From NCBI GenBank assembly GCA_947176615.1, contig CAMWRO010000003.1:1-32762 (forward strand): a stretch of 32,762 nucleotides of DNA, read 5' to 3'. Of the stretch, positions 15,924 to 29,800 are shown piece after piece; the first letter of the stretch is position 1; each line of letters begins with the position of its first letter. Source of the stretch: an uncultured Porphyromonadaceae bacterium (GTDB lineage Bacteria > Bacteroidota > Bacteroidia > Bacteroidales > Muribaculaceae). Both the position numbers and the translations under genes were made by a program. The notes below the pieces were generated by a model, which was not told the origin of the DNA, ran no database searches, and saw nothing but the letters and a program-made list of their open reading frames with translations.

Positions 15924-17008
15924 GCGGGGAGAATGTGATTTAAGTTAATTGTTAATTCAGTATTGTAACGGTTGCCGTCAAGGCCGGAGGCAAATGACGC
16001 GTCGTTGCCGTAAATCAGAGCGAGGCGGCGGCGCAGATTCTGCTCGCCTATCCCCTGCTTGCCCGGCTGTGACGCGGTATCGGGCGCGACTGAATTGGAT
16101 GTCACACAGGTTATGCGCCCCTCGGCGGCGGTTATCTTGATGTCGATGGTATCGGCGGGATTGCCGGTGTTGCCGTGCTTGAACACGTTCTCAATCACCG
16201 TGATAAACAGCAACGGGGCAATCAGGCTGTCGGCACAAGGCCCTGCATCAAGGGTCACGTTCATTTTCAATCCGGGATTAAGCCGCAACCGCATCAGTTT
16301 CACATAATTGTCGACAAATTCCAGTTCCTGCTTGACCGTCACCGCCCCGGGACTCTCGTAAAGGACGTAGCGCAACAGGCGGCTTAGCTCGTGAACGGCG
16401 TTCTGTGCCTTGGCGGGAGAGATGGCGATGAGGGCGTAGATGCTGTTGAGGGTGTTGAACAGGAAATGGGGGTTGAGCTGGCTTTTGAGGTTTTTCAGTT
16501 CCTCCTCGCGATGGGAGGCCACAAGCTCGCGGCTGCGGCGCTCAAGATTGAGCCACCGGTCACCCATGCGCAGTGCCACGCTCAGCCCTATCGTCAGAAT
16601 GAGCATCACGAAGTCCCTCAGAAGCAATGACGCGGCCCGGGCAAGAATCTGCCACTCGGTGGGGTCGGGGCCTTTGCGGTGGCGGGGGTGGAAACCGTTG
16701 CTGACCATGCGCCAGCCAATATAGGTCACTGTCAACACGACAGCCGTCAGGATGAGATTATAGATGACAAATTTCCAGACTGACCGGCGGCTCGTCAGCG
16801 ACCGCTCGATAATAAAATAATAGTTGATATAGAAAACAGCGATAAATATCAATCCCTTTATATACATCCACGGACTCATTCCCCGCCACGGCGATGCGAG
16901 TGTCGACAACACCTCGGGAAGAATAAACAGGATGCATATGAACAGCAGATGGGTCAGAAACGTGTTGACCCGCTTTTTATGACCGATATCACTCATAACT
17001 ATATACAC
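15920..17008 (-). CDS. LytS/YehU-type sensor histidine kinase
   Basis: N-terminal TM segments; LKSQLNPHFLFNTLNSIYALI and HELSRLLRYVLYES motifs; overlaps the response-regulator gene. Confidence 0.94.
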   Translation of the reverse strand: MYIVMSDIGHKKRVNTFLTHLLFICILFILPEVLSTLASPWRGMSPWMYIKGLIFIAVFYINYYFIIERSLTSRRSVWKFVIYNLILTAVVLTVTYIGWRMVSNGFHPRHRKGPDPTEWQILARAASLLLRDFVMLILTIGLSVALRMGDRWLNLERRSRELVASHREEELKNLKSQLNPHFLFNTLNSIYALIAISPAKAQNAVHELSRLLRYVLYESPGAVTVKQELEFVDNYVKLMRLRLNPGLKMNVTLDAGPCADSLIAPLLFITVIENVFKHGNTGNPADTIDIKITAAEGRITCVTSNSVAPDTASQPGKQGIGEQNLRRRLALIYGNDASFASGLDGNRYNTELTINLNHILPA

Positions 17009-17090
17009 TTAGGAGAGTCGAAGTTAGCACTTGGCGTGATAATTCACAAATCCTCTCTACCAATCCACATCTTTCCCCGACAATCGCGGG

Positions 17091-18374
17091 TCAATCGCGC
17101 CGGGCGCGGGCCGCAAGCATCCGATGGCCGAGACGGCAGTAAAGACACTTGCGCGTCTCGCAATAGCTGCGGCGCAACTGAATAAGTGCCTGCGAGGCAA
17201 AGGCATCACGGGCCTTCAATCCGGCACGCTCAAACATTGAGATAATCGCATTGCGCTCTGCCGGCAAGTCCTGAAGCATCGACATGGCCCGCTGAACGAG
17301 CTCTTCGTCGCCGCGCGAATGACCGTAGGCAACCATCAGCGGCACGACCACATTGATGACGAGAGACTCGGCCGACCCGCGGCTGAGGCCGCCAAGGGTT
17401 CCGGGGGCCTCGGCCCCGAATGTGTAATGCCGTTCCCAGTAACCCGAGGGGGCTGCCGAGAACATCCTGACAGCCTCGTCAGTGTCAGTCAGGCCTACGA
17501 TGCGGTTCAGCAGACGGAATCCGCCCGCGACCACGGCGGCAAGCATCGCCACGCGGCGGTGGGGGAAATTTCCGGGACGCATGCGCCCCATCTTCCATCC
17601 GAGCGGCTGAAGGGGGCGCAGTCCGAACTTGTGGGCATAAAACTTGTGTTCCTGAACGAGCCTCGCGACATAAGGGTCAGACGCGGGCGCGGTGTCAAGC
17701 AGCTGCCCCTGACCGAACAGCAGGGACTCAAGCGATAGCAGCGAGTCGCTGTGCTTGCGCAGGAAGTGCAGCGGGACGGCTGTTGCGAGACGCTGCATCG
17801 GCTCGCCGTTTATCCCGAACCCGAGGGCGCGGGCGAGAGTGACGTAGCATGTCTGTTCCCAGTCGCCGACGGTGGATTCAAGAATCGCGTTGACACGGTC
17901 GACCTTCTCATAGACGCGCTCATAGGCAAGGGCGGTTATCCAGTCGGTCAGATAGAGCGGGTGGATTGCGGCAAGTTCAGCCGCACACGGCAGGTCGATG
18001 TCGGCACGGTCAACGAGGTCGTGATAGCGGGAATGGAACTCGGGGGCGCATTTCATGACCATCTGCGGGATAATCTGCCCGTCGTGACGCCTGACCTCGG
18101 TGTCGTCGCGGTCGACGACGTGAAGAATCACCGAGTCGTAGGCTCGGTCGCCGTCATGGCCGTGACGGTGCCAGTCGCTTGCCCTGACATGGATTTCGAC
18201 ATCCCCGGCCCACAGGTCACCCCCGATCGAGACCTTGGCGTTGAAAAAGTCAGGTCCCGACCCGGTGTTCAACTGTCCGGGGTCAAGGATAGCGACCTTG
18301 CGACCGTCGACAGTGACCATGTCAGTGTGCAGCAGCAACCGGTGCTGCCACACATATTGCATCAGGCGTTCCAT
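17091..18374 (-). CDS. DUF2851-family protein
   Basis: MERLMQYVWQHRLL, GQLNTGSGPDFFNAKVSIGGDLWAGDVEIHVRASDWHRHGHDGDRAYDSVILHVV typical of DUF2851. Confidence 0.88.
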   Translation of the reverse strand: MERLMQYVWQHRLLLHTDMVTVDGRKVAILDPGQLNTGSGPDFFNAKVSIGGDLWAGDVEIHVRASDWHRHGHDGDRAYDSVILHVVDRDDTEVRRHDGQIIPQMVMKCAPEFHSRYHDLVDRADIDLPCAAELAAIHPLYLTDWITALAYERVYEKVDRVNAILESTVGDWEQTCYVTLARALGFGINGEPMQRLATAVPLHFLRKHSDSLLSLESLLFGQGQLLDTAPASDPYVARLVQEHKFYAHKFGLRPLQPLGWKMGRMRPGNFPHRRVAMLAAVVAGGFRLLNRIVGLTDTDEAVRMFSAAPSGYWERHYTFGAEAPGTLGGLSRGSAESLVINVVVPLMVAYGHSRGDEELVQRAMSMLQDLPAERNAIISMFERAGLKARDAFASQALIQLRRSYCETRKCLYCRLGHRMLAARARRD

Positions 18375-18398
18375 AACGGAGAGAGGATGCCGCCGGGG

Positions 18399-18875
18399 TC
18401 ACACCTCGGTCATGCGGTTGAAAGCAACCATCTTTATGGCAGTCTCGGCAGCCTCGGCACCCTTGTCGCCCATCGGGCCTCCCACGCGGTCTATCGCATC
18501 CTGCTCGGTGTCGACGGTCAGCACGCCGAATATAACCGGGATGTCACACTCGGCGTTGAGATGGGTGATGCCCTGTGTAACACTCTGGCACACATAGTCA
18601 AAATGGGGCGTGCCGCCGCGCACGACGCAGCCGAATACAATCACAGCGTCAAACGACTCGGTTTCAATGAGTTTAGAGGCGGCAAAAGTCAGTTCGACGG
18701 CACCGGGGACATCAAAAAGGGCGATGTCGTCACGGCTCATGCCGTAGTCGGTCAGACATTTAACCGCGCTGTCGCGCAGTTTACGGGTTATGTGGCCGTT
18801 CCATTCGGCGGTTACAATCGCAATCTTGACTTCGTCAAGCTGCGGCAGCGGAGTAGTAGGGACTGATTGAGACAT
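18399..18875 (-). CDS. ribH: 6,7-dimethyl-8-ribityllumazine synthase
   Basis: VTAEWNGHITRKL, FDVPGAVELTFAASKL, VVRGGTPHFDYVCQSVTQGI, NAECDIPVIFGVLTVDTEQDAIDRVGG. Start taken at MSQSVPTT; the longer ORF reads through repeat DNA. Confidence 0.95.
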   Translation of the reverse strand: MSQSVPTTPLPQLDEVKIAIVTAEWNGHITRKLRDSAVKCLTDYGMSRDDIALFDVPGAVELTFAASKLIETESFDAVIVFGCVVRGGTPHFDYVCQSVTQGITHLNAECDIPVIFGVLTVDTEQDAIDRVGGPMGDKGAEAAETAIKMVAFNRMTEV

Positions 18876-18884
18876 ATTTTTTTT

Positions 18885-18985
18885 TATAGTGTACAGTGAA
18901 GGGGTAAGATGAATGGTGAACAGTGAATAACGGGGAGGAAACAGGATGAAAGAACTATTATCTTCACTTTTCACCTTTCACTTTA
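18885..18985. repeat. 7-nt-period repeat (GTGAACA/GTGAATA vs CTTCACT/TTTCACC/TTTCACT)
   Basis: GTGTACAGTGAAGG..GGTGAACAGTGAATAACGG and, about 40 nt later, inverted CTTCACTTTTCACCTTTCACTTTATATTTTATCTT. Confidence 0.7.
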
Positions 18986-18989
18986 TATT

Positions 18990-20006
18990 TTATCTTGGGA
19001 AAACTTTGTGCCACAGGCTGAGGATGTCGAGCGAGCGGCTTTTGGCATTGACGAGAATGTCGACGATGCGGCGGTGTTCCTCTCCGGCGTTAATCTTTGT
19101 GGCCTTGTGGAGCATCGTGTTGAGCAAGTGGACACCCTTGTCACGCATGGCCGGAATCTGCAACATCGACTCGCCGAGGTCAATCGACATCACGAGCTGC
19201 TCGCGGGTGAAATCGGGTGACAGTTTTGTGGAATATTTCAACGCCCGCGAGAAATATTGCACGGCCTCGCGGTGACGGCCCATGTCGGCGAGAGTGCGAC
19301 CTTCGGTCAGCAGCGACTCGATCAGGCGCGAGGTGGCATCGCCGATACCCTCGTTGACCATCTGCAGGTAGGTCGACGTTGCGGCTTGATAATGGGCCAG
19401 CAGCTCGGCTTGTTTCACACGGGAACGGTAGACCGAGGTCGAGGCGTTCAGGGCCATGATGTGGGCGCTGCCATAGCGCTGCGGATTGGTCTTGGCGAGG
19501 CGTTCAAAAATTTTGAGCGACTTTTCAAGCTCGCGCTCAGCCTGCTTGAACTCGTTTCCCCCGGCATGTATATAGGCGATGTCATAGAGCAGCGCGGCAA
19601 GAATTTCAAGAAAAGGCTCGTCCTTGCGGCGCGGCTCCTGAGAGAGAAGATTGAGCGTAGAGGCCGCTGTCGATGTCGCCAAGTCCATCTCGCCGCTCTC
19701 GATATAGAGGGCAGTCAGAATCTGCATCAGCGCGGCATGGATGTTGAGCAGATGTCCGCTCTCGTCACCGGCGCGCATGATGAGCGCGTCAATATCGACA
19801 ATCGACCTTATGGCCCGGGCTGTCTCGCCACGCTCGACCATCTCGACAGCCGTGCGCCGGAAAAAATCATATGCAGTGTTGAAATCGGCCTCGCCGATAG
19901 CATGGCGCACCTGTGCCATCGCGCGTGAACGGCGGAAAATGGCCCTCAGCGGGGCGACATCGGTTGTAACCGACAGGAAAACCGATTCGAGTGATGTAGG
20001 CTTCAT
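18990..20006 (-). CDS. Tetratricopeptide-repeat-like protein
   Basis: Alpha-helical repeats (AERELEKSLKIFERLAKTNPQRYGSAHIMALN; EGRTLADMGRHREAVQYFSRALKYSTKL); located upstream of ribH. Confidence 0.75.
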   Translation of the reverse strand: MKPTSLESVFLSVTTDVAPLRAIFRRSRAMAQVRHAIGEADFNTAYDFFRRTAVEMVERGETARAIRSIVDIDALIMRAGDESGHLLNIHAALMQILTALYIESGEMDLATSTAASTLNLLSQEPRRKDEPFLEILAALLYDIAYIHAGGNEFKQAERELEKSLKIFERLAKTNPQRYGSAHIMALNASTSVYRSRVKQAELLAHYQAATSTYLQMVNEGIGDATSRLIESLLTEGRTLADMGRHREAVQYFSRALKYSTKLSPDFTREQLVMSIDLGESMLQIPAMRDKGVHLLNTMLHKATKINAGEEHRRIVDILVNAKSRSLDILSLWHKVFPR

Positions 20007-20770
20007 GGGCGGGAAAGGGTTGACAATATTGATTTCATGGCATCGACCACGCCCCCGGGGCCGGGAGTGCCGACGGTGATTTTTTCGCGTTCAGGAAATT
20101 TTTCAACCGTGGCCGAGGCTGTGTCAATGTTATAAAACCGGGGAGTATAAAACTCGATGTGGAGCCGGTAGTTATCGGCGGCATCGCGATTGCCGAAAAT
20201 CAGCTGCAGATCGTCGGTCGTGGTGACAATCACATCGGCAAGTTCCATGTTGTCAAGCACCGAGGGCATGACACGGGTTACGCGGGGCACCTGAAATGTC
20301 TCGAAATAGGGAAGATAGACCACGGTGGCCTTGCGGGCGCGGGCGTGTTCAAGGAGGTCGAGCAGGCGCGGGCGCACACGGTCGTTCAGTGAGAAATAGG
20401 AGCCGAAGACAACGACATCGTCAGGCTCGATGCGGGGCCAAACGGTGTCAAACTCCACGTCGGGCTCACGTCCATAACCGACCAAGCGGACCGTCCCGTC
20501 GGGTTGCTCGAAGATGTCGCGCTGCGGCGACCGTCCCTCGGTGAAACGGTCGACTGACCTGACATCCACACCGGCCGAGGCGAGAAAACCGACAATGAGG
20601 TCGCCGACAGGGTCGGCTGCGGCCTCGCCGACCATGACAACGCTGTGGCCTGCTGCGGCGAGCGCGGCAGCTGCCCGGCCGATGCGGTCACACGGCCTGA
20701 CTGTCACGCCGCCGTCATGACCGAAGATGAGGTTCAGCGGCAATTCGCCTATAAATATAATCTTTCCCAT
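20003..20770 (-). CDS. PfkB-family carbohydrate kinase-like protein
   Basis: AAAALAAAGHSVVMVGEAAADPVGDLIVGFLASAGVD, VIVTTTDDLQLIFG, TVGTPGPGGVVDAMKSILS, resembling the ribokinase fold and PfkB C-terminal motif. Confidence 0.8.
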   Translation of the reverse strand: MGKIIFIGELPLNLIFGHDGGVTVRPCDRIGRAAAALAAAGHSVVMVGEAAADPVGDLIVGFLASAGVDVRSVDRFTEGRSPQRDIFEQPDGTVRLVGYGREPDVEFDTVWPRIEPDDVVVFGSYFSLNDRVRPRLLDLLEHARARKATVVYLPYFETFQVPRVTRVMPSVLDNMELADVIVTTTDDLQLIFGNRDAADNYRLHIEFYTPRFYNIDTASATVEKFPEREKITVGTPGPGGVVDAMKSILSTLSRP

Positions 20771-20788
20771 AGCCTGTGTGCCAGCCGT

Positions 20789-21394
20789 TTACAATTCGTT
20801 GCGCGACTTGTGGCCCAGATAGCCTCCGTGATGCCGCTTGGCATAGTCGGCCACGCTGAAACCGGTCGCAGTCATCACGTTGACAACCAGAATGTCACCG
20901 ATTACGGTCATCATTGTCGTCGAGGTGGTGGGTGTCAGGCCGAGGGGGCACACCTCGGGCGCGCCGCCGGTCCACAAGGTTACGTCGGTAATCCGTGCCA
21001 GCTCGCTGTCGGCGTTACCGGTAATGACTATGAGGGGAATTTGAGGATAAAGATTCTTGGTGAGCGTCACCAAGTCGAGGATTTCGCGTGTCTTGCCCGA
21101 ATTGGAGATAAGGAGCATGACATCATCGGGTTGCAGGACACCCAAATCACCATGCTGGGCCTCGCTCGGATGCAGGTTTACAGCCGGGATGCCGGTCGAC
21201 GAGAAGGTTGTGGCGATATTCATCGCAATCTGTCCGGCCTTGCCCATGCCCGACGTGACGAGTTTGCCTCCACGGCGGTGTACTTGCTCGACAATGAGTC
21301 CGACGGCCTTGTCATAGGCTTCGGAATAGGGAATGTTCAGTATCGCACGACTTTCGGCCTCGACAATCTGACGCATTGACTCTTTAATATCCAT
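20789..21394 (-). CDS. SIS-domain sugar isomerase (KdsD/GutQ-like, lacking CBS domains)
   Basis: KLVTSGMGKAGQIAMNIATTFSSTGIPAVNLHPSEAQHGDLGVLQPDDVMLLISNSGKTREILDLV. 201 aa, SIS domain only. Confidence 0.88.
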   Translation of the reverse strand: MDIKESMRQIVEAESRAILNIPYSEAYDKAVGLIVEQVHRRGGKLVTSGMGKAGQIAMNIATTFSSTGIPAVNLHPSEAQHGDLGVLQPDDVMLLISNSGKTREILDLVTLTKNLYPQIPLIVITGNADSELARITDVTLWTGGAPEVCPLGLTPTTSTTMMTVIGDILVVNVMTATGFSVADYAKRHHGGYLGHKSRNEL

Positions 21395-21396
21395 GC

Positions 21397-21595
21397 TAAG
21401 TAGATGTTCAAATTAAAACGATAATATGTCTACAGTAGATGCGGAGTGGAATCTTGCATATCAACAGCTTGTCCTTTCGGGTCGTTTTGACCTTGTCGTT
21501 CAGTCGCATAGCTCGCTATGCTCCTTCGCTCCGCGTCCAAAACGCCTCCGAAATGACCGCGCTTTTGATATGCATTTAATCTGAACATCTACTTA
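21397..21595. repeat. Nested inverted-repeat (MITE-like or structured RNA) element
   Basis: Outer 20-nt inverted repeats with one mismatch (21397-21416/21576-21595); inner perfect TGCATATCAA/TTGATATGCA (21455-21464/21565-21574); TTTCGG..CGTTTTG / CAAAACG..CCGAAA; central GCATAG-CTCG-CTATGC (21506-21521). Confidence 0.85.
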
Positions 21596-21621
21596 TCTGT
21601 TTTTGTGTTGACTTTATAGTG

Positions 21622-21629
21622 CAAACTTA
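21622..21629 (-). promoter_or_regulatory. Possible -7 box for SIS-domain gene
   Basis: CAAACTTA on +, i.e. TAAGTTTG on -. No convincing -33 element, so weak. Confidence 0.4.
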
Positions 21630-21694
21630 CACAAAAAAAACGACATTCGCGTGACGGCGGATGACATATTTTCGTCCCAAACGCTATGGGAGGG

Positions 21695-22603
21695 TCATTT
21701 TAGCGGCTCGTAGAGGGCGATTGTCTCCTTGAGCGAGGATACTACCATAGCGCGCAACTCGGGAGGAGACATGACCATCACGCGCGGCCCGAGCGACAAT
21801 ATCTCCTGAACGAAGTCGGGGGTCAGGCGCAGGCGGTAGTGAAACACCGAGTAGGAATCATGGACCATCTCCTGCTGGGAATGGTGGAGCGGTAGGGCGC
21901 GGAGGTATTTGGCCTGACGGGAATCTACCTTCAGGGCCACCTCCTTGGTGTCGCCGTGGGAGAAGACGATGCCGAATGCGTCGCGCACAAACGCGTCGCT
22001 GTCAAAGTCATCGGGAATGGCAAATGTCACGGTGTCAAGCACATTCACGTCGGTCATGCGGTCAAGGGCGTAGGTCTTTATCTTGTCCTCCCTGACATTG
22101 CGTCCCGTGACATACCACCGCTGACGGAAGATTTTAAGGAAATAAGGCTCGACCGTCACGCCGGGCGACGGGTTGACGCGGGTATAGGGGTGATAGGTGA
22201 ACGAGACAGGATGATATTCCTTCAATGCCCCGATGACGGCACTGAGGTGCATTCGTGCCGAAGGAACATCTTCGAGGAAAATGCGGTCAGAAACCTCCCC
22301 TACGCTCGACAGGACGTTGCTCATTGCGGCCGAGTTGAGCAGCCAGTCGGTGACACTCTCGCTGTAGCTGTCACTCTCCGAGTCGATATAATACTCAAAT
22401 GTCGAGGGGTTGCACTCGATATTGATTTTAAAAAGCTCCTCGATAGCGTTGCGATAATTGTAGAATGTGCGGCGCGGCATCGGCTCGCCGTCGCTGATGG
22501 GCGACTGCACCCACAGGCGGTTGAGCCTCTCGCGGGTAATCGCCCCGTGACGCTTGATTGTGTCAATCAGCCAGATGTATCGGTTCAGAAGGTTCTTGGA
22601 CAT
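21695..22603 (-). CDS. WYL-domain transcriptional regulator
   Basis: N-terminal HTH region, PVSFTYHPYTR, PYFLKIFRQRWYVTGRNVREDKIKTYALDRMTDV; clear paralogue of the 26470-27369 protein. Confidence 0.88.
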   Translation of the reverse strand: MSKNLLNRYIWLIDTIKRHGAITRERLNRLWVQSPISDGEPMPRRTFYNYRNAIEELFKINIECNPSTFEYYIDSESDSYSESVTDWLLNSAAMSNVLSSVGEVSDRIFLEDVPSARMHLSAVIGALKEYHPVSFTYHPYTRVNPSPGVTVEPYFLKIFRQRWYVTGRNVREDKIKTYALDRMTDVNVLDTVTFAIPDDFDSDAFVRDAFGIVFSHGDTKEVALKVDSRQAKYLRALPLHHSQQEMVHDSYSVFHYRLRLTPDFVQEILSLGPRVMVMSPPELRAMVVSSLKETIALYEPLK

Positions 22604-22720
22604 AATTTTTAAATTTACCTCAACTTGAGCAATCTATACGAGACACGGAGTCAGTTCTTTTCAGGTTTCAAAGGTAGGTAACACGAGGGCATGAATCATG
22701 CAACACTGTGTTAAAGAGGG

Positions 22721-23743
22721 TTAATCCACTGCTTTTTCGGCGCGGGAAACGGCATCGGCGATGAAACTGCCTTTAGCCAGTTTTGAGGCCAATGACATGG
22801 CATTGGCCTTCATCACGGCGTAATCCCCGGGGGAGAGCCGTGACAGGACCTCAGGGAGGTCGCGCAATGATGATACGCATATCCCCGCATTATATTCCTT
22901 TACAATCCCGGCAAGGGCGGCCTGATCCCAGATGATGACCGGCAGACCCGTGCGGAGGTAGAGGGATGTCTTGTGGGGCGCGTTATATTTCAGATATTCG
23001 CCGAGCGCGCCCGCTCCCTCGTCGAGCGAGGAACCGTACCACACAACGCCGAAATCGCCCTGCGCGGTGGCAATCAAGGTGTCGGAATCGACATATCCCA
23101 TCGCGTGAATGCCGGGGGTCAGCCTTGACTTGTCGATACCGCCGCCATAGATGACCAAGTCAAGCGACGGGGCGGCCTCGCCGAGCTGATAAATCCAGTC
23201 ATTGTGAACCGGCGAAGCATTTCCGGCAAACATCAGGCGGTAACGGCCGCCGGAGGCGAGATTCTGAACAGCCGGGACCGAATCAGACAGGTAGTCCCAC
23301 AGACCGGCCTCGATTATCGGCACAGTCACACCGTTGTCAACGAGCCACCGGCGCATGGCAGGAGTGTGAATAACTATGGCCGTGCTGCGGTTTAGCCGCT
23401 CGACCTCCCACTCGACAGTCAGTTTCTTGCGCCGGAAACTGCCGAGGTCGTGAATGAGGGTTATGACCTTGGCTCCGCGGGCCTTGGCACGGCTGACCAC
23501 AAAGTCATAGTACTTTTTAAGCGGGTACTGCACGAGGAGGATGTCACCTTTTTTCAGCGACATGACCCCTTTCAACACACTCGCGAGGGTTATAAAGTAG
23601 GCTCCGACCGCACTGCCGACCCGACGCTGGCGCAACCCGATGTTCCGGTATCCCATCGACTGCAATATAGCCTCGACATCGGTTTTCGCCTTATCGCCCC
23701 CGCCGCCGATTTTACGGTAATTCTTGGATATATAACACTTCAT
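22721..23743 (-). CDS. Glycosyltransferase (galactofuranosyltransferase-like)
   Basis: DILLVQYPLKKYYDFVVSRAKARGAKVITLIHDLGSFRRKKLTVEWEVERLNRSTAIVIHTPAMRRWLVDNGV; LGEYLKYNAPHKTSLYLRTGLPVIIWDQAAL. Confidence 0.85.
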   Translation of the reverse strand: MKCYISKNYRKIGGGGDKAKTDVEAILQSMGYRNIGLRQRRVGSAVGAYFITLASVLKGVMSLKKGDILLVQYPLKKYYDFVVSRAKARGAKVITLIHDLGSFRRKKLTVEWEVERLNRSTAIVIHTPAMRRWLVDNGVTVPIIEAGLWDYLSDSVPAVQNLASGGRYRLMFAGNASPVHNDWIYQLGEAAPSLDLVIYGGGIDKSRLTPGIHAMGYVDSDTLIATAQGDFGVVWYGSSLDEGAGALGEYLKYNAPHKTSLYLRTGLPVIIWDQAALAGIVKEYNAGICVSSLRDLPEVLSRLSPGDYAVMKANAMSLASKLAKGSFIADAVSRAEKAVD

Positions 23744-23841
23744 CTGTTTTCAAGTAATTCCGCAAAGGTAGCAAAATTTTGATGAAGGACGCGGAAAACC
23801 GCAGGGAAGTTTTACAGATATAAAATCGCGGGGGCAAACAT

Positions 23842-23887
23842 GCGATGGGCCACAGGAGAAGGATATCCGTCTCCTGCGGCCCATTGC
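23842..23887. terminator. Long hairpin downstream of unknown membrane protein gene
   Basis: GCGATGGGCC-a-CAGGAGA / TCTCCTG-c-GGCCCATTGC with 10-nt loop. No strong T-run, so terminator function is inferred. Confidence 0.55.
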
Positions 23888-23903
23888 AGATGGTCTATAT
23901 CAG

Positions 23904-25535
23904 TTACTGAATAAACAACTTGTATATCTCAAATCCCATACACAGGACAAGAATAACACAGATTACTTTTGCCCAAAGACCAGTCCCTGTCTCTATCGTT
24001 TCCCAATCGGAACCATCAGAGACGGTATCAACTTCCTCACTTGATGTTGCCAAGAATGCACCGATTATCGCGCCAATAATAAGTCCACCGACCATGGGGA
24101 TGAATAAGCCAATAATACCACCAATCAAAGCACCGATCCACACGGAATTTTTCTTTTCGACAATTTCACTTATTTTGCGGGGCTGCGGGTATTCTCCCGC
24201 GACACGGCGGGCACAAGTATTGGTAAATATTCGAATTTTTTCCTGTTTTGACTCATACTTTTTCAGGATCTTGTCAAATATCACGGCACATCGCCACCAG
24301 ATGATGACGCCGATGGCGATAGTCGAGACAATCGACCAAAATACGCTCAACTTCGTAAAAATTGGTATCGACAGAATCGCGGTCGAAAGAATTCCGTTTA
24401 TAAATATCACCCCGGCACGAGAGTCGCTTTCCTCCTCAAGTGCGGTATCGGCTAGGCACAAGTTATAATTATCACAAACCGCTTTATTGGCAGTAAACTC
24501 TTTTTGCATGACATCACAACCCGAGCTCGCGTAATATATCTTACTCAATGCGTAATATTCGGAGCAATGAGCCTGATAGGTAGCCAACAAACCGTCGTCA
24601 AATATTAAAACCGCAACATACATCGGGAATGTTGTAAATTTACCGCTCAAGACACCCTCAAGATCATTGCGAATATCCTTGCAGCTCTGCTCAAGCGACT
24701 TATTCTCATCGGCTAAATCATTTCCATAGATGATGCCAAACAACAACTCACTATTGACATCTTCCATATCAGGCATATTGTAGCCTGTCGAGAAGACATC
24801 GTTATACCAGTCAGTCAACTGTTTTTGCCAATATTCAAGATAGCGAAGATGAAAACGACTTGACCGCCAATTGTCGAGCGTAAGTTGCATGCGTACAAGC
24901 TCCTTTTCTCTTTTTTCGCCCCTGAAATAATCAGCAGTGACATTTCCCGAAATATATTCAGACAAAATATCTAAGTCATCGGAGTCCATTTTTTTGCACT
25001 GATTCATCAGCCGCTCCACAGCTGGAAGTTTCAATCGTGCAACTTCTCTTAAATGAGGATAAATTTCATTCCGCAACTTGATTTCCATATTTGCGGCTTG
25101 AAACAGTTTGCCTATTCCGCTTGTAGCAAGAGCGCATAGTTCATAGAGTACAGCAGCATCCGTCTCATCGTCACTGAGATAGGCGGGTTTCCGGCCGTTT
25201 GCTACTATGTTAGCTTGTTTGCGAAAATAATTGGCGAGTTTCCCGAATGAACTGTCTATCTCATTCATTTCAGCGAATATATCGCTGCAGATACCATCAA
25301 TTTCTGCTGTCAGCGAACCCCATTGGTTCCTGTCAAATGCCGGAGTCTCAGCCGATTGAACCGCTACAGCGTCACACTCTTGCTTATTGATGTCTACCGC
25401 GACATCTGCCCACGGATTGTCTGACGTGGTTTCAACGACTGCCTCTGCTGTTTCTGTCGTTGTCTCCTCTCCACCTGATGTCGAGAGCGAACTATTCCAT
25501 TTGGAATTATTTTTAATGTAGGATGCTTTATCCAT
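23904..25535 (-). CDS. Multi-TM protein of unknown function with glycine-zipper-like segment
   Basis: 543 aa; long helical soluble N-terminal region; C-terminal hydrophobic segments AGVIFINGILSTAILSIPIF, SIVSTIAIGVIIWW, VWIGALIGGIIGLFIPMVGGLIIGAIIGAFLAT, LWAKVICVILVLCMGFEIYKLF. No family recognised. Confidence 0.85.
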   Translation of the reverse strand: MDKASYIKNNSKWNSSLSTSGGEETTTETAEAVVETTSDNPWADVAVDINKQECDAVAVQSAETPAFDRNQWGSLTAEIDGICSDIFAEMNEIDSSFGKLANYFRKQANIVANGRKPAYLSDDETDAAVLYELCALATSGIGKLFQAANMEIKLRNEIYPHLREVARLKLPAVERLMNQCKKMDSDDLDILSEYISGNVTADYFRGEKREKELVRMQLTLDNWRSSRFHLRYLEYWQKQLTDWYNDVFSTGYNMPDMEDVNSELLFGIIYGNDLADENKSLEQSCKDIRNDLEGVLSGKFTTFPMYVAVLIFDDGLLATYQAHCSEYYALSKIYYASSGCDVMQKEFTANKAVCDNYNLCLADTALEEESDSRAGVIFINGILSTAILSIPIFTKLSVFWSIVSTIAIGVIIWWRCAVIFDKILKKYESKQEKIRIFTNTCARRVAGEYPQPRKISEIVEKKNSVWIGALIGGIIGLFIPMVGGLIIGAIIGAFLATSSEEVDTVSDGSDWETIETGTGLWAKVICVILVLCMGFEIYKLFIQ

Positions 25536-25567
25536 AAATGTTATATAATAGAGGTATAATAAAAAGT

Positions 25568-25996
25568 TTATAAAGCCAATAGGCGGTCAAGCTCTGCAAA
25601 ATAGGCACGGTGTTCCATTTCAAGCATTTTCAACAAAGTATTCTGAGCGTGCAACTCGCCATCTTCCATCGAGGAGAGATTTCTCATCATCAGCTGCTCC
25701 CTTATCATGGCAATACCGTCAATGCGGGATTGGAGATTTTTCTCGGCATAAGGTAGATATTCCTTAAATTTCTGAAGGTTTCGGCGCGAGAGTTCCATGA
25801 ACTGATTGTAACGAATGTCCTGCTCGGCTCTTGCTATTTGTAACTCCTTCCATGCGTTAATAATAGCTGTCCCTGATGCCATCAAAGAGTGACCTTGAGA
25901 CAGACAGTTCCGGATATTTCCGATAAAACGGTCCGATTTAGCCTGTACGTCATCTATCGCGTTAAGGACTTGTGCCATCTGTATTTCATCAGCCAT
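25568..25996 (-). CDS. Small all-helical (coiled-coil-like) protein of unknown function
   Basis: 142 aa, MADEIQMAQVLNAIDDVQAKSDRFIGNIRNCLSQGH...; 32 nt upstream of the membrane-protein gene on the same strand. No family recognised. Confidence 0.8.
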   Translation of the reverse strand: MADEIQMAQVLNAIDDVQAKSDRFIGNIRNCLSQGHSLMASGTAIINAWKELQIARAEQDIRYNQFMELSRRNLQKFKEYLPYAEKNLQSRIDGIAMIREQLMMRNLSSMEDGELHAQNTLLKMLEMEHRAYFAELDRLLAL

Positions 25997-26123
25997 TGTT
26001 TCCTGTATTTTTTAGTTTATTTTAGGTTATAAAAAAGACGTGAATCCGCCTGAATTGTTTTATCCATCGAAAGTCGGGCTCTGGTAAACCTCAGGGTGAC
26101 AGATAAAAGCAAGCAGTTTCACG

Positions 26124-26139
26124 CCTGTATATATACAGG
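26124..26139. repeat. Perfect 16-bp palindrome in the intergenic region
   Basis: CCTGTATATATACAGG equals its own reverse complement. Confidence 0.9.
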
Positions 26140-26281
26140 TGCTCAACGCACTTGCCGAACCTATTCTACCCGAGTAAAAAAGTGTACCAGACTTTGACTT
26201 TCGGAATAAGTTTCGACAATATTGTATAACAATGTATGTACCTGACAACGTCTCATCCTCTGACGAGCGATGTCAATAGTG

Positions 26282-26314
26282 CAAATTTATGAATTAATCT
26301 GATTAAAATCCAAA
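26282..26314 (-). promoter_or_regulatory. Candidate promoter of the two-gene cassette
   Basis: On -: TTTG (complement of CAAA 26311-26314), 21 nt, TAAATTTG (complement of 26282-26289). Confidence 0.45.
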
Positions 26315-26428
26315 TTTTGCCCACTATTTAACACTGATTCCATACACGCGCTTACTGCTTGCTTAGGACGGCGTAAAATTACTGCGAGATTACGCCAATA
26401 ACTGTCTTAGTGGCGAAAATTTCATCAG

Positions 26429-26449
26429 CTGCGACAACTTTTGTCGTAG
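26429..26449. promoter_or_regulatory. Candidate operator upstream of WYL regulator
   Basis: CTGCGACAA-CTT-TTGTCGTAG, 8 of 9 positions complementary, just upstream of -7-like TAATTTTG (26458-26465) and the ATG at 26470. Confidence 0.5.
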
Positions 26450-26469
26450 TCTATGCTTAATTTTGCAGT

Positions 26470-27369
26470 ATGATACATCAATATAAGTTTTGTCTATGGC
26501 TTGTCAACAAGCTGGCTGACCGGGAGATGTCGCTGGAGGAGATTCAGCGCGAGTGGCTTGACAGCGCGAGCAATGACGAGGGGGTTCCTCTGACGGCGCG
26601 GACGTTTTCGCGCTACAGGGCGCATGCCGAGTCATTGCTGAATGTCGACATCGAATGTGACAAGTCGACAAACCGTTACCGTCTCGTGGCCGGGGACAAT
26701 GTGGCTGACTGGATACTGAGCGCGATGCGCGTCAGCGAACTTGCCCGACGTGTCGACATCCGAGACTTCATCATGCTTGAAAATCCTCCGGCGGGAAGCG
26801 GGATTCTCGATACTGTCATCAAGGCCCGCGAGCGATGCGCAATGCTGGAGTTCAGCTATCGCTCGCTTTATCAGGAAACCCGCAAGTACCGGGCCGTGCC
26901 CCTGTTCCTGCGCCTGTTCAGGCAACGGTGGTATGTGACTGCCCGACGTGAGGGCAAGGATTTTCTGACCACCTTTGCACTTGAACGCATGACCGATGTC
27001 AGGGTGGTTGAAAACACTCCCCCCGCGACGATGCCGCCTGTCTCTCCCGAGGAATATTATTATGACTGTTTCGGCGTAATCCATTCGGGCGAGCCTGAGC
27101 GCATAGTGGTGCGCGCATTCTGGCCGCAGAACGCCTATCTTGCCGAGGTGCCGATGCACCACTCGCAACGCGCGGTGGCTGAAAACGACGGCTGGACCGA
27201 CTATGAGCTGTATCTGCGCCCCACCTATGATTTCAAGCAGGAGCTGCTGTGGCATCGCGACAAGCTCGCGGTCATCTCGCCCGCATGGCTGCGCGACGAC
27301 ATGCTCGACATTCTCAGGCGCATGGCCGAGTCATACTCGACCGGGGAGCCGCACTGCAAGGATGAATAG
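26470..27369 (+). CDS. WYL-domain transcriptional regulator
   Basis: CAMLEFSYRSLYQETRKYRAVPLFLRLFRQRWYVTARREGKDFLTTFALERMTDV; VPMHHSQRAV; paralogue of 21695-22603. Confidence 0.88.
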   Translation: MIHQYKFCLWLVNKLADREMSLEEIQREWLDSASNDEGVPLTARTFSRYRAHAESLLNVDIECDKSTNRYRLVAGDNVADWILSAMRVSELARRVDIRDFIMLENPPAGSGILDTVIKARERCAMLEFSYRSLYQETRKYRAVPLFLRLFRQRWYVTARREGKDFLTTFALERMTDVRVVENTPPATMPPVSPEEYYYDCFGVIHSGEPERIVVRAFWPQNAYLAEVPMHHSQRAVAENDGWTDYELYLRPTYDFKQELLWHRDKLAVISPAWLRDDMLDILRRMAESYSTGEPHCKDE

Positions 27370-27372
27370 GAA

Positions 27373-29271
27373 TTACCCCGGGACAGTCAGGTTGCCCGAG
27401 GGGGTGAGGACGAGGCGGCCGTCGTCCATGAGGGAGCGGATGACGGGGAGCACGCGGTCGGGGCGGACGGTGAGCTGCCCGGCGATGTAGTCGACGGTGT
27501 GGCCGCCGGGTTGGGAGGCAAGATAAAGGATTGACTCGGTCATGGTGCGGGTGTCGTCAGCGGGGCGTGCCGTGACAGGGCGAGACTGACGGCACACGTC
27601 GCATTTTCCGCAGGGATGCTCGGGAGTTTCGCCAAAGTAGCGCAACATCGTGTTGACGCGGCACTCGTCGGGCGAGAACGTGAACCGTTTCATGGCATCG
27701 ATGCGCTTTTCAAGACGCTCGCGTTGCACCTCGTAGACCTCGCGGGGCAGGATGACATACTTGGGCAGCTCGCGCGAGGTGGTATAGACAATGTAGGGGG
27801 TGGTTTTGCGGGGGACGTAGCTGATGATGTGCATCCTCGACAGCAGCAGCAACGATTGGTAGACCTTTTCGCTCGACATGACAAGACGCTGTGCGATAAG
27901 GACTTCGTTAATATACACATAGTCGGCAAAGAGGCCGGTATAGGTGCGCAGGAGCAGTTGCAGCACTTCGTCGGTGTCCACGTCAACCCGCAAGTTGTAA
28001 AGCTCCTCTTTCCCAACCGTGATCATCACGCGGGAGCGCGTCGTGGTTTCCTCGACAAATTCCAGATACCCGGCGCGGGTGAGAATCTGCAACGCGCTGT
28101 GGGCGGTCAGCGGCTTGAGGTCAAAAGTGCTGCAGAACAGGTTGAAATTAAACTCATAGACGACGTTATATCCGCTCCCGACGGCGACATTGAGGAAGTT
28201 GCCGACAAGCTCGTAGACCCGCGCGATATATTCCTTGTCGGGGAACGCCTCGGCGACGCGGCGCGTCAGGACGCTCTTGTCATAGCGCGACGCGATGATG
28301 ACGGCAAATGCCGGCTTGCCGTCGCGGCCCGCGCGGCCCGCCTCCTGATAATATTCCTCAAGCGAGGAGGGGAGGTCGTAGTGGGCGACCACGCGCACGT
28401 CGGGTTTGTCGATACCCATACCGAAGGCATTGGTTGCGACCATGACGCGCACCTCGTCGCGTTTCCATCGGTTCTGTTTCTCATCCTTCTCCTCGGGAAG
28501 GAGTCCGGCGTGGTAAAAGTCGGCGCTTATCCCTTCGCGGCACAGCATTTCGGCAATCTCGCGGGTGCGGCGTCGCGAGCGCACATAGACAATCGAGCAG
28601 CCGCGTGTCGATTTCAGTATTTTCAGCAGCAGGCCGTCTTTGTGGTCGCCGTAACGCACGATGTAGGAGAGGTTTTCGCGCGAAAAGCTGCGGGAGAACA
28701 TGTTGGGTTGTCTGAAACGCAGTGTCGACATGATGTCGCGTGTCACCTCGGGGGTGGCCGAGGCTGTCAGGGCGAGCACGGGAACGGAGGGGAAAATGTC
28801 GCGCAACGAGACGATTTTGAGGTAGGAGGGGCGGAAATCATAGCCCCACTGCGAGATGCAGTGGGCCTCGTCGACAACGATGAGCGACACGGTCGTGAGA
28901 CGCAGCATCGAGAGGAACCGCTCGTTTTGCAGCCGCTCGGGGGAGACATAGGCTATTTTGACCTTGCCGAGCCGGCAGCGGTCCATCGCGAGTCGGCTCT
29001 CGCCCGGAGTCATCCCGGCATGAAAAAAGACAGCCTTGATGCCGCGGTCGCGCAGATTGTCGACTTGGTCTTTCATCAGCGAAATCAGCGGTGTCACGAC
29101 GATGGTCAGACCGTCGAGCATCATGGCGGGGACTTGGAACGTGATTGACTTTCCGCCGCCTGTAGGCAGCAGTCCCAGCGTGTCCTTCCCCTCCAGCACC
29201 GAGGTTATAATCTCTTGCTGCAAAGGACGGAACGCATCATATCCCCAGTATTTTTTAAGAACGGTTAACAA
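27373..29271 (-). CDS. recQ: RecQ-family ATP-dependent DNA helicase
   Basis: YWGYDAFRPLQQEIITSVLEGKDTLGLLPTGGGKSITFQVPA, VVDEAHCISQWGYDFRPSYL, LALTASATPEVTRDI, ATNAFGMGIDKPDVRVVAHYDLPSSLEEYYQEAGRAGRDG, zinc-binding CGKCDVC. Confidence 0.97.
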   Translation of the reverse strand: MLTVLKKYWGYDAFRPLQQEIITSVLEGKDTLGLLPTGGGKSITFQVPAMMLDGLTIVVTPLISLMKDQVDNLRDRGIKAVFFHAGMTPGESRLAMDRCRLGKVKIAYVSPERLQNERFLSMLRLTTVSLIVVDEAHCISQWGYDFRPSYLKIVSLRDIFPSVPVLALTASATPEVTRDIMSTLRFRQPNMFSRSFSRENLSYIVRYGDHKDGLLLKILKSTRGCSIVYVRSRRRTREIAEMLCREGISADFYHAGLLPEEKDEKQNRWKRDEVRVMVATNAFGMGIDKPDVRVVAHYDLPSSLEEYYQEAGRAGRDGKPAFAVIIASRYDKSVLTRRVAEAFPDKEYIARVYELVGNFLNVAVGSGYNVVYEFNFNLFCSTFDLKPLTAHSALQILTRAGYLEFVEETTTRSRVMITVGKEELYNLRVDVDTDEVLQLLLRTYTGLFADYVYINEVLIAQRLVMSSEKVYQSLLLLSRMHIISYVPRKTTPYIVYTTSRELPKYVILPREVYEVQRERLEKRIDAMKRFTFSPDECRVNTMLRYFGETPEHPCGKCDVCRQSRPVTARPADDTRTMTESILYLASQPGGHTVDYIAGQLTVRPDRVLPVIRSLMDDGRLVLTPSGNLTVPG

Positions 29272-29304
29272 TGGGTCAATTCAGTTCAATGCACAATTTT
29301 TCAT

Positions 29305-29504
29305 GCAGCCGCTGAGCGGCGGGGCCATGCGTAACCCCACGCCTCGGCGTGGGGACCGGCCGGTACTCTGATATATCGAGCATCGGAGATGCGAATCTAT
29401 AGTCACCACCATAGGCTCGCGTCTTCGACGCTTTTTCGCTTGTTTTGCCTTCTCCCCCACGCCAAGGCATGGGGTTTCGCATGGCCTCGCCGCTCCGCGG
29501 CTTG
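29305..29504. repeat. Long inverted repeat (50-nt arms, 43/50 complementary)
   Basis: 29305-29354 vs reverse complement of 29455-29504; the left arm also has the palindrome CCCCACGCC-TC-GGCGTGGGG (29335-29354). Confidence 0.88.
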
Positions 29505-29556
29505 TCACCGTCAGCTTTAGACCAACAATGACAGGACAGGCACTCCCGCTCGCAAG

Positions 29557-29574
29557 GTCGCGCCACGGCGCGAC
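29557..29574. repeat. GC-rich palindrome
   Basis: GTCGCGCC-AC-GGCGCGAC, perfect 8-bp stem. Confidence 0.85.
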
Positions 29575-29602
29575 GCAATGCTGTTTACTTAACGAGATTG
29601 CA

Positions 29603-29745
29603 AACTGAGCCCGCAGGGCGATTGCCGGTAATGAGGTGGTTACCACCACATCGCCCTGCGGGCTCAGTTATTTTGGGTGGTGCCGATACCCCGCATTCCG
29701 CTGCGCTCCATACGGGGTTTAACACAATATCGCCCTGCGGGCTCA
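29603..29745. repeat. Three copies of GAGCCCGCAGGGCGAT in both orientations
   Basis: CTGAGCCCGCAGGGCGAT (29605-29622), inverted ATCGCCCTGCGGGCTCAG (29650-29667), third copy ATCGCCCTGCGGGCTCA (29729-29745). Confidence 0.92.
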
Positions 29746-29767
29746 ACGAAATTGCCATCCAAGAGAT

Positions 29768-29800
29768 TATACATTCTCAATTCTCAATTCTCAATTGTCA
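29768..29800. repeat. 7-nt-period repeat (TTCTCAA)n
   Basis: cattctcaattctcaattctcaattgtcaagg; same heptamer as the 10025-10100 locus; overlaps the 3' end of recJ. Confidence 0.8.

Follow-up and report, generated by a model that had tools for sequence, protein, structure and literature searches.

The window analyzed in this work, a stretch of 32,762 nt, is part of a draft genome (G000; 2.83 Mb in 348 contigs, 86% complete). Two codirectional genes were found on its - strand, gene A (23904-25535, 543 aa) and, 32 nt upstream of it, gene B (25568-25996, 142 aa), and a gene for a WYL regulator (26470-27369, + strand, 299 aa) diverges from both, just as an earlier sequence-only reading of this DNA had described. 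A strong hairpin without a long U-run lies right after A (23835-23893, - strand; about -38 kcal/mol predicted for the fold of 23830-23903) and is the probable end of the operon. Rfam matches to miRNA families at this position were discarded as chance hits reflecting the hairpin itself.

The intergenic region between B and the WYL gene contains a structured leader RNA (26031-26215, - strand) with an outer stem P1, an invariant stem P2, an inner stem P3, a long-range tail helix and a U-tract, preceded by a Bacteroidetes-type promoter for leader, B and A (26280-26316, - strand) with a -33 TTTG (26314-26311) and a -7 TAAATTTG (26289-26282). The -7 element TAATTTTG of the WYL gene (26458-26465, + strand) was read from the sequence and is kept in G016, a sister genome of the same genus, and in G100, from another genus, as is TAAATTTGC of the B/A promoter. 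Neither the RNA with its promoter nor the exchange of the segment 23814-26019 in G016, described below, had been part of the sequence-only reading.

GC content was 0.40-0.46 over 23.5-26.5 kb vs. about 0.55 around it, and 0.433 in the exchanged segment vs. 0.556 in the rest of the window, which bears out the AT-richness claimed earlier with the exception of the WYL gene; at 0.578 this gene resembles the flanks, and the AT-rich part is thus limited to the pair and the leader. The window also holds a second WYL regulator (21695-22603, - strand; Pfam WYL 9.8e-14), about 32% identical to the cassette regulator and conserved in G016, and a repeat-like spacer between RecQ and RecJ (29272-29790) that is shorter in G016 by about 115 nt (29620-29733).

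Proteins A and B

Hydropathy of A indicated two hydrophobic segments at about 375-424, a glycine-zipper hairpin at about 473-491 (about 466-497 by other bounds) and a last segment at 524-542. Its predicted layout comprises an N-terminal part of about 110 aa modelled at low confidence, a helical domain, a transmembrane hairpin (about 375-424), the zipper hairpin, a DGSDW segment and the last transmembrane segment; a (D)GSDW-like segment ahead of the latter is kept in most members of the long class of A defined below. The model of A as a whole was of low confidence (pLDDT 59). B lacks hydrophobic segments and is all-helical by prediction, its model (pLDDT 87) showing three helices in a generic helical bundle. 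A is taken to be a membrane-anchored helical protein and B its soluble helical partner.

The sequence-only reading had recognized no family for either protein, and the searches performed here named none. The best Pfam match of A was DUF456, confined to the zipper region and below threshold (19.7 bits vs. a cut-off of 29.4), and Gly-zipper_Omp reached 11.2 bits, below its gathering cut-off of 25. No match to A or B was obtained with NCBIfam or PADLOC, and neither a dynamin-type GTPase domain nor a Leo model was found in them with Pfam and PADLOC. A sequence search of the PDB gave no significant match, the only entries retrieved being a Rop protein and helical bundles made by design. Foldseek, which had been proposed as a check, gave nothing significant with either model; weak fold matches in the PDB (coiled coils, F-BAR proteins, YaxA, IpaB; E ≥ 0.7) were discarded. 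Homology to a housekeeping family, an outcome that would have spoken against the earlier proposal, was looked for and was absent.

Distribution of the Pair and Genes around It

A first order-wide profile search with A was swamped by cross-matches to glycine zippers, a problem solved by means of a zipper-free alignment, whose profile revealed more A homologues in one genus. A was present in five of 397 genomes of the family (protein search) and B in one of 61 relatives, so that core-genome synteny, which would likewise have counted against the proposal, does not apply. Those contigs with the closest homologues that carry a name are from Muribaculaceae MAGs. The 14 Muribaculaceae loci fall into two classes that align over most of their length: seven with a long A (515-545 aa) carrying the zipper hairpin, and seven with a short A (389-410 aa; one of them cut by a contig end) without the zipper and without the last transmembrane segment. 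In all of these 14 loci but G304:C12, and thus in 13, an HMM of B identified a B gene adjacent to A. Order- and phylum-wide searches yielded one convincing distant relative, beside three weak matches, one of them in G057; this relative is a diverged pair in another family (L076; A-like E 8.8e-10, B-like E 1.3e-5) that adjoins a type IIG restriction enzyme. A/B is thus confirmed as a true gene pair, its co-occurrence being what the synteny search suggested earlier was meant to reveal, and it constitutes an unnamed family of paired proteins, new here. Recurrent partners were DUF6140, on which our literature search found no paper, DUF4112 and a protein of 323-423 aa that we call E. Relatives of A/B were not found in single-sequence scans of genome contigs and IMG/VR, nor in plasmid and phage searches.

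Defence-type genes accompany the pair at several loci. In G268, LeoA (2.8e-129) and LeoBC (2.1e-75) adjoin it according to PADLOC; in G252, three Dynamin_N GTPases stand at the pair locus; PADLOC further detected a PDC-M40B relative at G304:C12 and a PDC-S30 relative in G407, with a closely similar protein in G369. The remaining loci showed no recognized defence gene in the stretch read, and some have neither such a gene nor an RNA copy; the defence neighbourhood is therefore an association and not a proof. With LeoA/LeoBC and further dynamins, PADLOC candidates and, for the distant pair, a type IIG restriction enzyme as neighbours in relatives, a defence-type role of A/B is likely, in line with the defence or stress-effector system proposed by the sequence-only reading.

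The same neighbours could mean that A/B is a tether or adaptor accessory to membrane-remodelling dynamins, the window copy being a remnant or working with a dynamin encoded elsewhere. Next to the pair there are dynamins in G268 and also in G252, where the leader RNA precedes them; as dynamins occur at only two of the 14 loci and the window has none, we regard this as improbable.

Three of the loci deserve separate mention. L008 (G268:C29, 974-12374) is a dense cluster of LeoA, LeoBC, DUF1232, protein E, A, DUF6140, B and WYL genes, together with two copies of a 182-aa family known from the cassette of G016. L066 (G407:C2, 4053-12260) carries short A, B and DUF4112, flanked by the PDC-S30 relative, a WYL gene and a protein of 589 aa that belongs to no family, and the gene set of L068 (G369) is almost the same.

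Replacement of the Cassette in a Sister Genome

Comparison of the window with the corresponding locus of G016 (L111) by blastn showed 94-95% identity over 16000-23813 and 26020-29619, with the same gene order. The WYL gene is 96% identical and promoter and leader are also kept, whereas the intervening A/B segment (23814-26019; 2.2 kb, 43% GC) is replaced in G016 by an unrelated cassette of 2.85 kb (GC 0.417) with three genes for proteins of 182, 270, and 484 aa. The 484-aa protein displayed a weak TM2 match, and the 182-aa protein shares 76% identity with a protein encoded close to LeoA/LeoBC and A/B in G268. On the promoter side, homology reaches the start codon of the first gene (B in the window), where a 10-nt indel is found. 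Homology up to this codon, with other ORFs beyond it, indicates that promoter, leader and WYL gene were kept while the ORFs were exchanged. This allelic replacement, seen in one pair of draft assemblies, is direct evidence, new here, that ORFs are exchanged while the module stays in place, and gives substance to the horizontal acquisition previously considered a possibility; an assembly error, as a possible source of the difference, would need to yield a clean ORF replacement. Among RecQ-anchored stretches of 20 other genomes of the genus, neither a cassette-type WYL gene nor either cassette was present.

An exchangeable segment holding a small upstream gene and a larger membrane gene, constantly paired and patchily spread, could also be a toxin-antitoxin-like addiction pair in which B restrains A, the WYL protein controls dosage only and no immune role exists. 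The loci, however, frequently include DUF6140, DUF4112 or protein E as well, which a module of just two genes would not, A/B is absent from the plasmids and phages searched, and the cassette replacing it in G016 matches no model of such a pair; we give this explanation a low probability.

The WYL Regulator and Its Candidate Operator

The WYL protein matched Pfam WYL (5.3e-10) and WCX (3.2e-10), and a search of its residues 1-110 against Pfam alone gave no HTH match. It is 54% identical to the WYL protein divergent from a cassette of short A, B and DUF6140 in G252; its identity to the WYL protein of G100, encoded divergently from A/B, is 51%. These closest relatives from outside the genus (51-54%) stand next to further A/B pairs, whereas the remaining WYL proteins of the compared genomes reach at most 34% identity, which argues that regulator and cassettes move together. 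WYL genes near some of the other A/B loci belong to more distant subgroups (27-30% identical). A relative with 38% identity occurs in G516, at L084 (G516:C2, 7711-11649), beside DUF6140, an IetA-like AAA protein and several small membrane-type proteins, and this locus is another possible cartridge. Judged by these relationships, the WYL gene belongs to the A/B system, and the placing of the pair under a divergent WYL regulator in the sequence-only reading holds good.

Upstream of the -7 element of the WYL gene stands a CGACAA-N3-TTGTCG palindrome (CGACAA-CTT-TTGTCG in the window, 26432-26446), which is kept in G100 with different bases, as CTATGACAA-ATA-TTGTCATAG; no clear palindrome was found at the B/A promoter. 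Palindromes of this kind are bound by BrxR and CapW, two WYL proteins that regulate defence systems (PMC9122601, PMC9122588). The window palindrome is a candidate operator to which the WYL protein may bind.

A Leader RNA Shared by Unrelated Operons

The leader RNA, of about 185 nt, folded far better than shuffled sequences on the operon strand (z -4.7; -4.2 for the copy in G100), and several compensatory changes distinguish the window and G100 copies. A covariance model built from three sequences and searched in 18 genomes recovered the three founders and, in G252, a further strong copy (E 9.4e-13) that is flanked by B and the dynamin operon. Weak copies were found at G000:C45 (E 1e-3) and G006:C25 (E 0.05), and further ones at L085 (E 9.3e-7), L101 (core motif; model E 0.004) and L102 (model E 0.0027). 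The family totals nine copies, eight of them distinct, several being weak when taken singly (E 1e-3 to 0.05).

P1 differs in sequence in most copies and pairs in each (AAAGUC/GACUUU, UUUAGAA/UUCUAAA, UUCGGUUA/UAACCGAA, UUCGUCAGA/UCUGACGAA), P2 (UCUGGUAAA/UUUACCAGA, followed by GCC) is nearly invariant, and P3 is variable yet paired. A further helix joins the 3' tail, ahead of the U-tract, to an arm inside the RNA (GGCGUGAA/UUCACGUC; GAGGACACAG/UUGUGUCCUC; AGCCGUUUUU/AAAAACGGCU), and this helix may be a pseudoknot or an alternative terminator hairpin. Alignment-free permutation tests were chosen because a MAFFT alignment of the eight RNAs misplaces the outer arms. Shuffling partners between copies gave p = 5e-5 for P1 and p < 5e-5 for P3, values that are partly circular since both stems helped to select the copies through the model, and p = 1.5e-4 for the tail, a cleaner test because this pairing lies outside the covariance model; the effective sample is below eight in all of them, as L139 and L140 are alike and the window, L010 and L067 share parts.

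All nine copies lie upstream of a codirectional gene, at less than about 230 nt except for one at about 480 nt (G000:C15). Downstream are A/B (twice), the G016 cassette, the dynamins and KAP NTPase with GmrSD (twice). In G450 the gene is a small one, at G000:C15 it encodes a WYL protein, and at G268:C42 it belongs to the UDG superfamily and has a WYL gene as its neighbour. One of the KAP loci, L139 (G000:C45, 3767-9597), carries a KAP P-loop NTPase and two GmrSD-type genes behind the RNA and is a probable defence operon. The third copy of G000 (L261, G000:C15, 9582-11164) is followed by the WYL gene with no cassette between, and may represent a locus that is minimal or has been emptied. Eight of the nine copies have a Bacteroidetes TAnnTTTG promoter, located 81-110 nt upstream of the core.

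No known RNA family was detected when Rfam was run over the whole window at curated cut-offs, nor did Rfam 15 give any match at relaxed E-values for the leader region and the loci of four other copies. Our literature search found no paper on such a leader RNA. As a control, 100 IMG/VR stretches with the core motif gave no model match; such stretches were rejected as chance occurrences (0/100 fit the model and 4/120 pass a loose helix test). A leader-peptide attenuator was also rejected, no short ORF being conserved across the copies. An RNA class absent from Rfam thus precedes several unrelated defence-type operons, and this is new here.

The promoter in eight of nine copies, the U-tract and a size near that of 6S RNA would also suit a free-standing small RNA acting in trans, 6S-like or as a decoy. 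Such an RNA is rather unlikely given that a whole-genome model search (E ≤ 0.1) detected it in only five of 18 genomes, with three copies in G000, that it has no Rfam match and that a codirectional gene is always downstream. The exchange junction just past the 3' end of the element might suggest instead an attC-like DNA recombination site driving the exchange. The placement of promoter and U-tract, the constant orientation toward the next gene and the lack of an integrase nearby make this very improbable, and the wobble test for the RNA sense strand (G-U vs. A-C) favoured either strand weakly.

Proposed Function of the Locus

We consider it probable that the locus is an exchangeable immune-type cassette behind a kept control module, which would consist of the WYL regulator, its candidate operator, the Bacteroidetes promoter and the leader RNA of about 185 nt directly before the first gene. 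The cartridge would be B and A in the window and the three-gene set in G016. Most likely, the promoter at 26282-26314 gives a transcript of leader, B and A. The WYL protein would keep the system low until a signal of infection or damage, and the U-tract after the tail helix would be a natural transcription stop at which the leader RNA sets read-through; expression would be allowed once the signal is perceived through the leader RNA, through the regulator or through the two together. A, anchored by its hairpins and with B bound, would act at the inner membrane and probably stop the infected cell or block the phage there. This last step draws on topology, neighbours and rarity, and any particular effector action of A/B is put forward with less confidence than the cassette behind its module.

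More tentatively, and with somewhat less than even expectation, the leader RNA could be a new class, a sensor-switch that unrelated immune-type operons of Bacteroidales have in common, with cassettes exchanged behind the kept WYL and RNA module. If so, one fold, with its core UCUGGUAAA/UUUACCAGAGCC, tail helix and U-tract, would control A/B, dynamin, KAP plus GmrSD and other cassettes, and a common signal would regulate immunity through RNA. To our knowledge, little is known on how dangerous immune genes are silenced and activated in bacteria; interchangeable effectors behind a kept module, together with a shared RNA class, would make this question testable, and the leader RNA could help to search gut Bacteroidales for defence genes not yet described.

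Comparison with Known Systems

Operons for defence controlled by WYL proteins are already known. The locus resembles those of BrxR and CapW in having a WYL protein beside or divergent from the operon, a palindrome near the regulator's own promoter and one regulator family beside many defence types; it differs in the operon itself, in the structured leader RNA in between and in the exchange of ORFs behind a kept regulator, its operator being a candidate only. A shares with glycine-zipper proteins (Pfam Gly-zipper_Omp, DUF456) a transmembrane hairpin with small-residue spacing, but scores below the Pfam cut-offs, and the short class of A lacks the zipper altogether. The bacterial dynamins LeoA/LeoBC (PADLOC models LeoA, LeoB, and LeoBC) are membrane-acting (PMC4159319) and adjoin the pair in G268, as other dynamins do in G252, whereas no GTPase domain is present in A or B, and neither is recognized by a Leo model. 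With riboswitches and attenuators the leader RNA has in common a structured 5' leader and a terminator-like end before the first gene; it matches no Rfam family, and its core, its tail pairing and its spread over unrelated operons are peculiar to it.
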